A stretch of DNA of 41,124 bases from Bifidobacterium breve (lineage in GTDB: Bacteria > Actinomycetota > Actinomycetes > S36-B12). A program made the translations under genes and the position numbers. Positions 7,167 through 10,689 of this stretch are shown one piece after another; position 1 is the stretch's first letter; each line of letters opens with the position of its first letter. The stretch is taken from assembly GCA_945877545.1 (NCBI GenBank), contig CAMCSO010000005.1, positions 1 through 41,124 on the forward strand. Reading direction: 5' to 3'. Below the pieces are notes generated by a model that did no database searches, was not told the origin of the DNA, and saw only the letters and a list, made by a program, of their open reading frames with translations.

Positions 7167-10019
7167 ATGTCGAAGGTTCGGGTCCATGAGCTCGCAAAAG
7201 AGCTCGGTGTGCCGAGTAAGGATGTCCTGGCCAAGCTGCAGGAACTCGGTGAGTTTGTAAAGTCGGCTTCGTCAACGGTGGAAGCCCCGGTCATCCGCAA
7301 GCTCAAAGAGGCGATGCCCGCTGCTGCCGTGGCTCCCGCAGACTCTCCGGCGGCTGAAGCGCCGGTGAAAAAGACGGCTGCAAAGAAGACGACGAAGGCT
7401 GCCGAGTCAGTTGGGGAGTCCCCAACTGCTGCATCCAGTGAGGTTGCGCCCGTTCGTCCTACCCCATCGGCACCCGCGCTTGCCCCGGTGCAGCCGGCGG
7501 CGACCCTCGCTGTACCGTCTGCACCGCAGACCCCTGCGGTAGCAGTCGAGTCCCCTGCTGCCAGTGCCGTCCCGGGCTCGCAGGCCGCGGGAGAGCCCGC
7601 CCCGCGCCCGGTTCCCGGTGGTCCGCGCCCGGTCCCCGGTGGGATGCGCCCAACCGGCCCTCGACCGGGAAACAACCCGTTTGGTGAGAGCACCGGTATG
7701 GGCCGGACCCCGGCGCCGCGTCCCGGTAATAACCCCTTCGGCGGCAGCACGGGCATGGCCCGGCCCCAAACCCCGAGCGTCCCTGGCGCACCGCGCCCGA
7801 ACCCCGGCACCATGCCCCCTCGTCCTGCGGCACGTCCGGCAGGGACAGGCGGCCCGAGCAGAGGCCCGAGTGGATTCCAAGGCCGTGGCCCCGGGGGACC
7901 AGGTGGTTCCGGGGGACCTAGCCGTGGTCCTGGGGGTACCACGGGATTCCAGCAGCGGGGTCCGGGAGGTCCCGGCAGTGGAACCAGTCCGGGTGCAACT
8001 GGCCGAGGTCCAGGTGGTCCAGGTGGTCCCGGTGGTCCCGGTGGATTCCAAGGCCGACCAGGAGGCAGCGGCCCGGGGGCCCGTGGCACGACGGCTGGAG
8101 CATTCGGCCGGCCCGGTGGCCGTCCGTCTCGCGGCCGCAAGTCCAAGCGCGCGACGCGCCAGGAGTTCGACAACATGCAGGCGCCGTCCATGGGCGGTGT
8201 ACGAATCAGTCGCGGTTCGGGCGAGACCGTCCGGCTGCCACGTGGCTCGAGCCTCACTGACTTCGCCGACAAGGTGAATTGCATGCCGGCTGACCTGGTG
8301 AAGGTACTCATCGAACTCGGTGAGATGGTCACCGCGACTCAGTCGATCGATGACGACACCCTGCGACTGCTGGGCGAGCACCTTAATTACCAGATCGAGG
8401 TCGTGTCGCCCGAGGATGAAGACCGCGAACTGCTCGAGTCCTACCACCTCGAGTTTGGCGAGGACGAGGGTGCAGATGAAGACCTTGTGGTCCGTCCGCC
8501 GGTCGTTACCGTCATGGGCCACGTCGATCACGGTAAGACCCGCCTGCTCGATGCAATCCGAAAGACGAACGTCCTAGGCGGGGAGGCTGGCGGGATCACG
8601 CAGCACATCGGCGCGTACCAGGTCTCCACTATGACCAAGGAGGGTGAACGGAAGATCACCTTCATCGATACTCCGGGCCATGAGGCGTTCACCGCCATGC
8701 GAGCACGTGGTGCGCAGGTCACCGATATTTCGATCCTCGTCGTTGCCGCTGACGATGGCGTGAAGCCCCAGACAATTGAGGCCCTCAACCATGCTCAGGC
8801 CGCCGGTGTCCCGATCGTGGTCGCCGTGAACAAGGTTGACAAGGAAGGGGCGGACCCGACAAAGGTGCGTTCGCAGCTCACCGAATACGGTCTCGTCGCA
8901 GAGGAGTTCGGGGGCGACACGATGTTCGTCGATGTGTCGGCCAAGGCTGGTACTGGCATCGAGGCACTCCTCGATGCAGTGCTCCTCACCGCTGATGCAG
9001 CCCTGGACCTGAAAGCGAATCCGAATCAGGATGCCCAAGGCGTGGCAATCGAGGCTCACCTTGATCGCGGGCGTGGTCCGGTGGCGACTGTCCTTGTCCA
9101 GCGTGGCACCCTGCGCGCCGGTGATTCGATAGTCGCGGGAGATGCGTACGGTCGCGTTCGAGCGATGCTCGATGACGAAGGGAATCCTGTTCAGGTCGCT
9201 GGTCCGTCCTTCCCGGTGCAGGTACTCGGCCTGACCTCGGTTCCGGGAGCGGGCGACAGTTTCCTCGTTGTCTCCGAGGATCGCGTCGCACGTCAGATCG
9301 CGCAGACACGACAGGCGCGGGAGCGCAATGCACTCCTCGCGAAAAATCGCGTGAAGCGCTCGCTCGAGGACTTCCTCGAGTCGATCGAGAAGGGCGAGGT
9401 TGCCGAACTCACCCTCATCATCAAGGGCGATGTCTCCGGTTCTGTTGAGGCACTCGAGGATGCGCTATTGAAGATCGATGTCGGCGAGGAGGTGAGTCTG
9501 CGTGTCATCCATCGAGGCGTGGGCGCGATCACCAAGAATGACGTGACCTTGGCCAGCGCGTCGAAGGCGGTCATCATCGGGTTCAACGTCCGGGCTGAGG
9601 GCAAGGTGGCCGAGCTTGCAACCCATGAGGGCGTCGATGTTCGCTACTACAGCATCATCTACCAGGCGATCGAAGAGGTTGAGGCCGCACTTCGGGGGAT
9701 GCTCAAGCCGGAGTACGAGGAGGTACAACTCGGTACCGCGCATGTCCGCGAGGTATTCAAGTCGTCCAAGTTCGGCACGATCGCCGGGTGCCTTGTGCAG
9801 TCCGGAGACATCAGGCGCAATGGCAAGGCGCGCCTAATCCGTGATGGTGTCGTGGTGGCAGAGAACATTGCCATCGCGGGCCTGCGCCGATTCAAGGACG
9901 ACGTGACCGAGGTTCGCGAGGGCTACGAGTGCGGTATCAACCTCGGAAACTTCCAAGACGTGAAGGTTGAGGACGTCATCGAGACCTTCGAGATGCGGGA
10001 GAAGCCGCGCAAGCCCTAG
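7167..10019 (+). CDS. infB: Translation initiation factor IF-2
   Basis: [60 protein letters not shown] GTPase motifs; Gly/Pro/Arg-rich linker. Confidence 0.98.
7590..8140 (+). repeat. Low-complexity Gly/Pro/Arg-rich linker with [13 protein letters not shown] repeats inside infB
   Basis: Translated [36 protein letters not shown] and [17 protein letters not shown] runs. Confidence 0.85.
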
Positions 10020-10031
10020 CCCACCCCGGTG

Positions 10032-10123
10032 CCGTTTGTCCCACGACGTGGGGCATTCGGCAGAAATCGGCGTCATTACGCGGCATTTCCCCCGTTTCTC
10101 CCCTTTCATGGGACAAACGGGGG
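10032..10123. repeat. Intergenic inverted repeat with alternative inner stem between infB and rbfA
   Basis: CCGTTTGTCCCA (10032-10043) is the perfect reverse complement of TGGGACAAACGG (10109-10120); CCCCCGTTT (10089-10097) is the perfect reverse complement of AAACGGGGG (10115-10123). Confidence 0.8.
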
Positions 10124-10162
10124 AGGGGCGACGTTGGTGCTTGATGGTTCCGGAATTTGAAT

Positions 10163-10174
10163 TTCACCGGTGAA
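10163..10174. promoter_or_regulatory. 12-bp perfect palindrome TTCACCGGTGAA touching the rbfA SD
   Basis: ttcaccggtgaa reads identically on both strands; SD aaggagg begins at 10173. Confidence 0.5.
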
Positions 10175-10185
10175 GGAGGCTGGAA

Positions 10186-10689
10186 ATGAGCAGCGAGGCG
10201 CGGCAGCGCAAGATGGCGGACCGCATCAAGGTCATTGTGGCGGAGGCGGTTGAGCGGCGAATCAAGGATCCGCGACTCGGCTTTGTAACGATCACCGATG
10301 TCCGTGTGAGCACGGATCTGCGGGATGCTTCGGTTTTTTACACGGTGTTTGGCGACGATGAGTCACGCCAGAGCACGGCGGCGGCCCTCGAGTCGGCGCG
10401 AGGCATGCTGCGGACCGAGGTCGGTCGGTTGACCGGACTGAAGTTCACCCCTTCCTTGGCATTCTTCCCGGACGCGATTCCCGAGAATGCCAAACTCGTC
10501 GACGAGTTGCTCCGTGCTGCAGCACAGGCTGATGCACATGTGCACGAACAGGCGGTGGGCGCGCAGTACGCCGGGGAGGCTGATCCTTATCGTCACCCTC
10601 GGGTTGAGGAGGATGATGAGGTCGGGGCCCTTGAAGGCGGGGAGTCCATCGTCCAGACCGGTGTCGACGGTGCCGACAAGAACCCGTGA
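10186..10689 (+). CDS. rbfA: Ribosome-binding factor A
   Basis: RQRKMADRIKVIVAEAVERRIKDPRLGFVTITDVRVSTDLRDASVFYTVFG; upstream of truB. Confidence 0.95.
   Translation: MSSEARQRKMADRIKVIVAEAVERRIKDPRLGFVTITDVRVSTDLRDASVFYTVFGDDESRQSTAAALESARGMLRTEVGRLTGLKFTPSLAFFPDAIPENAKLVDELLRAAAQADAHVHEQAVGAQYAGEADPYRHPRVEEDDEVGALEGGESIVQTGVDGADKNP

Follow-up and report, generated by a model that had tools for sequence, protein, structure and literature searches.

The window, by which we mean the whole stretch of 41,124 nucleotides analysed here, carries infB and rbfA one after the other, with two RNA hairpins, A and B, encoded between them (Table 1). The infB gene ends with a TAG stop codon (10017-10019), and its C-terminal tail of 14 residues is kept in all relatives compared. 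In most other relatives infB and rbfA overlap or are tightly spaced with no insert. The doublet of hairpins was present between the two genes in three g1 genomes and in four g11 genomes (G047, G051, G056 and G058). In genus g7 the two genes are separated by a short ORF, which we take to be a YlxP/DUF503-like gene (L140, L148, L149, L153, L156 and L165) and which the window does not have. Two MAG records are titled Bifidobacterium breve (L015 and L018, the latter with 74% rbfA identity to the window's copy), yet their infB-rbfA regions are those of this actinobacterial family, and the titles look wrong.

Table 1. Features at the infB-rbfA junction of the window
Feature	Coordinates	Strand	Basis and remarks
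infB (translation initiation factor IF-2)	7167..10019	+	ORF list; name from the earlier note and synteny
Hairpin A, palindrome copy 1	10031..10061	+	pair probabilities 0.996-0.999; model R1 match 42.4 bits
Linker between cores A and B, 37 bp	10058..10094	.	self-complementarity 0.50 (partial)
Hairpin B, palindrome copy 2	10088..10124	+	pair probabilities 0.90-0.999; model R1 match 53.2 bits
Overall dyad of the doublet	10032..10120	.	36-nt arms, 72% complementary; arm 10032-10043 against 10109-10120
rbfA 5' flank	10125..10185	+	Shine-Dalgarno-like AGGAGG at 10174-10179
rbfA (ribosome-binding factor A)	10186..10689	+	ORF; relative L015 93% identical

An earlier note on this DNA had described two mutually exclusive stems sharing one 3' strand, and had proposed a switching leader or attenuator or, alternatively, a dispersed intergenic element. 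We confirmed that both stems exist. The long stem (10032-10043 with 10109-10120) is a perfect helix of 12 bp, and the 9-bp stem (10089-10097 with 10115-10123) grows to 15 bp at 10088-10102 and 10110-10124 with one C.C mismatch. The pairing of a smaller hairpin (10040-10044 with 10048-10052), thought to compete with the long stem, also exists and is the tip of the 31-nt hairpin A. What had been missed is that hairpins A and B repeat a single palindrome at a distance of 60 bp. The 23-bp core of hairpin A (10035-10057, TTTGTCCCACGACGTGGGGCATT) is decayed, with two T.T mismatches and one G.T, and that of hairpin B, also 23 bp (10095-10117, TTTCTCCCCTTTCATGGGACAAA), fits the strict family pattern given below and has one C.C mismatch in its outer arms. 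The two cores stand in tandem with a period of exactly 60 bp. Because A and B are the same palindrome, their arms are able to cross-pair, and the long stem consists of the 5' arm of copy A and the 3' arm of copy B.

The folding of the region was then examined. The 111-nt region folds more stably than its dinucleotide shuffles (z = -4.8, with none of 200 shuffles as good). Its minimum-energy RNA structure consists of the two local hairpins (-58.8 kcal/mol). When the long stem was forced the energy was -54.3 kcal/mol, a cost of 4.5 kcal/mol, and the probability of this pairing was below 0.001, so that a switch is not supported. A search of the region against Rfam gave nothing beyond chance level, with scores far short of the gathering thresholds, and a consensus scan of the rbfA 5' flank and the window revealed no promoter-like or terminator-like match and no U-tract. 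A riboswitch or attenuator leader was thus rejected on folding (no comparable competing stems), on Rfam (no known leader family) and on the consensus scan (no terminator). An intrinsic terminator was also considered and rejected, a T-run being found at only 2 of 130 family copies and at none in the window.

On the other hand, genome searches established the alternative of a dispersed intergenic element. The further genomic copies, which the earlier note had suggested looking for, were found and decide for this reading. The core 11-mer GGGACAAACGG occurs eight times in the 2.97-Mb genome (reversed control, 0), and a covariance model found about nine hairpin loci. The consensus of the family is TTTSTCCC-N7-GGGASAAA. 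We searched 85 related genomes with a strict pattern, TTTSTCCC-N{3,14}-GGGASAAA, and obtained matches in 15 of them, most carriers having 2-21 copies and two genomes one each; the control gave a single match over all genomes. Although centres of 3-14 nt were allowed, the centre was 7 nt in nearly all matches listed. The inner stem bases vary among species yet still pair. Such symmetric changes are also expected of a palindromic protein site, and are therefore no proof by themselves of an RNA hairpin.

The copies are arranged as singles, doublets and triplets. In the TTTSTCCC family 43 of 53 spacings were 60-61 bp, and the 37-bp linkers showed a mean self-complementarity of 0.48 (34 family linkers) compared with 0.26 after shuffling. 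CRISPR was considered as a source of the 60-bp period; the occurrence of singles to triplets and the self-complementary linkers speak against it. According to a simple custom gene caller, the copies lie mostly directly 3' of stop codons (36 convergent, 29 tandem and 4 divergent sites), and some adjoin tRNA genes. The distribution among related species is patchy, with whole sister species lacking the family; since all genomes are drafts or MAGs, such absences are soft. The window's genome has two strict copies against 11 in G083, and the arms of its copies are mismatched; the family looks old and decaying there. No cognate nuclease gene for TTTSTCCC was found in the window's genome (a draft, 90.5% complete). 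At one locus (G000:C99, L003/L282) decayed direct partial copies (TCTTCCATTTCACGG... and TCTCCCATTTCATC...) precede one palindrome, resembling an eroded array. A scan of IMG/VR with the pattern TTTSTCCC-N7-GGGASAAA gave 30 viral contigs (L290-L319) with one site each.

In some loci palindromes about 1.2 kb apart bracket a single gene beside gltA. Its product matches the profiles AbiEi_4 (1e-10), DUF559 (1e-4) and MTES_1575 (0.004), the latter two near the cut-off, with AbiEi_4 lying in the N-terminal part. We also found near-invariant residues, E226, D249, D258, E269, D271 and K275, and a weak match to PDB 3hrl (E = 0.058). The weak profile matches and the conserved acidic and Lys residues point to a putative PD-(D/E)XK-type (Vsr/MTES-like) nuclease. 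A search with this protein identified a high-scoring gene copy in 22 genomes, which include all 13 genomes having at least five strict palindromes or a model R1 match; in genus g7, gene and palindromes occur only in G024. As the genomes are related by descent, these association counts are not independent. The dN/dS values of 0.15 and 0.10 in two pairs indicate purifying selection on the gene there; in the second and third pairs the synonymous sites are almost saturated.

Concerning the gene neighbourhood, inspection by eye of five gltA-linked copies revealed gltA together with dapD or an acyl-CoA synthetase gene, and neither a partner toxin (AbiEii) nor a methyltransferase was noticed beside them. 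A tblastn search of plasmids gave no match. The dapD locus of G000 was searched for a lost nuclease; the neighbours differ there, which is weak evidence of absence. Upstream of the ATG of the gene, most species have TTG preceded by a CTGTGGATAAC-like motif (L320-L340), and this is perhaps a promoter or operator of the gene.

The flanks of the gene were compared in the 19 high-scoring loci with both gene flanks in sequence. The same palindrome stands on the left and on the right of the gene (scores 14-43, median 27), compared with 8-11 for rbfA-flank controls. The weakest match, in G041, was just above its own null, and several of the higher nulls are due to rbfA control loci at which this palindrome is present as well. 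These flank palindromes are genome-specific. Genomes with the gene and without TTTSTCCC have other palindromes on the gene flanks. Within the window's genus, a TTTSTCCC-flanked nuclease was found only in G083, and in G000, G081, G082 and G084 the high-scoring copies have other families at their flanks. Distant paralogues found in other genera mostly have palindromes or repeats of 60-66 nt at their flanks too, in most cases common to the left and right sides (the flank in G028 is masked). Another nuclease copy of the window's genus (L331 and L332, in G082 and G084) is bordered by palindromes of a third type (TTTCATCCAG...), and G000:C47:9837 is probably its counterpart.

The flanks of the gene in other genera do predict other dispersed palindrome families. 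In G070, the family predicted from the gene flanks, ACTTTCCCAG-N3-CTGGGAAAGT, has 17 dispersed copies, with two of four spacings at 60-61 bp, and no copies of this palindrome were found in 11 congeners lacking the high-scoring gene. In G021, which belongs to another genus, the predicted family has about 12 copies in 396 kb (16% of the genome; control, 0), and in G040 several further copies were found, including one pair 60 bp apart. The flank palindrome of G049 gave only its two flanking copies, with none further in 149 kb. The window's genome itself harbours a second family, CATCTSGCCC-N7-GGGCSAGATG, predicted from gene flanks at C6, with 22 copies (at most three mismatches; control, 0) and 9 of 11 spacings at 60-61 bp. 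One CATCTSGCCC palindrome (G000:C1:15799-15825, L373) lies inside a DUF559-like ORF match (C1:15781-16197), and overlaps of a similar kind occur in G083:C54 and G084:C16. Taken together, the association of palindrome families with the AbiEi_4-DUF559 gene is well supported.

Among known systems, enterobacterial BIME/REP and ERIC-like imperfect palindromes lie 3' of genes, form stable RNA hairpins and are built as mosaics of palindromes. The present elements share all three traits and differ in their sequences, their fixed 60-bp period, their host group and their associated gene. The resemblance to REPIN-RAYT systems (PMC3116915; RAYTs, PMC2817692) extends to short, dispersed extragenic palindromes, over-represented inverted doublets of fixed spacing (60 bp here, 71 or 110 bp in REPINs; PMC3116915) that form larger hairpins, a single linked gene with the palindromes on its flanks, and several independent families per genome. 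Unlike those systems, the carriers here have no RAYT/Y1 transposase; PF01797 was detected in four of the 85 genomes, none of them a palindrome carrier, and a RAYT as mobiliser was rejected on this ground. Instead, the flanked gene combines AbiEi_4 with a PD-(D/E)XK-like DUF559. The copies found are also far fewer (2-25), without a regular GTAG-type head: a REP tag, GTAG/GTGG or CGTC within 10 nt of the palindrome foot, was present at only 12 of 130 copies. CGTC REPs, which 'apparently lack a dedicated transposase' (PMC3733652), likewise lie between convergent and unidirectional ORFs and form dimers in opposite orientation, but here a CGTC tag is not the rule and a dedicated gene is associated. 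An N-terminal AbiEi_4 domain recalls the AbiEi antitoxin of the type IV toxin-antitoxin AbiE (PMC3985639), although in our case it is fused to a DUF559-like part and stands without a noticed AbiEii partner at the five gltA-linked copies.

These results suggest that the feature between infB and rbfA is probably a REPIN-like doublet, a miniature non-autonomous member of a dispersed extragenic family tied to the AbiEi_4-DUF559 gene. We infer that the protein encoded by this gene mobilises the palindromes. It would recognise its own palindrome through a wHTH-like N-terminal half and would cut hairpin, cruciform or replication-fork forms, by which short doublets would be copied to new places; copies would survive chiefly just downstream of stop codons, since an insertion is tolerated at such places. 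A broader proposal, which we hold only tentatively, is that miniature palindromic elements of actinobacteria could be mobilised by a PD-(D/E)XK-type protein bearing an AbiEi-like domain. Such a system would parallel REPIN-RAYT independently, with another nuclease fold in place of a single-strand HUH transposase. At the present locus, the doublet is most likely a passenger that sets apart genes which usually lie close together, and the two strong hairpins it forms may shield the 3' end of infB or reduce read-through.

Other explanations were weighed against a mobile doublet. The palindromes might have no mobile origin and be kept in this lineage for termination, as transcription terminators or as hairpins at mRNA 3' ends (TRIT-like), which the nuclease gene uses as its own terminators. 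Their marked preference for gene 3' ends and for gaps between convergent genes, their occurrence beside tRNA genes and the high stability of the hairpins agree with this, but the scarcity of T-runs noted above does not, and termination needs no 60-bp doublets or triplets. Taking into account also that the family is missing from whole sister species, that palindrome sequence tracks the flanked gene and that the element breaks a usually tight infB-rbfA pair, we consider this explanation unlikely. In another reading, the palindromes would be the sites that a defence or homing nuclease targets or recognises, and gene conversion, not copying by the nuclease, would have spread them. Such an origin would account for the AbiEi-like and REase-like domains and for the palindromic sites common to the gene flanks. 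The fixed 60-bp doublets and paired linkers suggest a copied unit over scattered sites, and the toxin or methyltransferase partner was not noticed at the five gltA-linked copies; such an origin seems to us improbable.

The dispersed, intergenic, inverted-repeat architecture and patchy presence would also fit MITEs of an ordinary insertion sequence with an unrecognised transposase, in which case the AbiEi_4-DUF559 gene would be carried as a passenger or be a place where they often land. However, the nuclease is the only gene recurrent between same-family palindromes, in several genera and with different palindromes, and no IS was seen within a palindrome pair, so that we find this quite improbable. 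That mutually exclusive stems act on rbfA as a switching leader or attenuator is extremely improbable. The cross-pairing arms are real and perfect over 12 bp, and the two hairpins occur at this site in the g11 and g1 relatives as well, but their long-range pairing is hardly ever populated, it contains a mismatch in G047 (L025 sequence), the U-tract of a terminator is absent, and these doublets also follow the ends of numerous unrelated genes, for the most part in convergent arrangement.

In a partial literature collection we found no earlier report of such a system and no paper linking DUF559 with inverted repeats, and novelty is to this extent provisional. The standard example of short repeats maintained by one domesticated transposase is the REPIN. 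If our interpretation is correct, the same architecture would occur with an unrelated nuclease-like protein, and the arrangement would have arisen more than once. The widespread and uncharacterised AbiEi_4-DUF559 gene family would be given a role, and as a direct prediction, the repeats of a genome should be readable from the flanks of any gene of this kind that it carries. Hairpins between actinobacterial genes should also be viewed with caution, as they may be repeat copies and not regulators. The results suggest that repeat families which travel with one nuclease-like gene form a class of miniature selfish DNA not recognised before.
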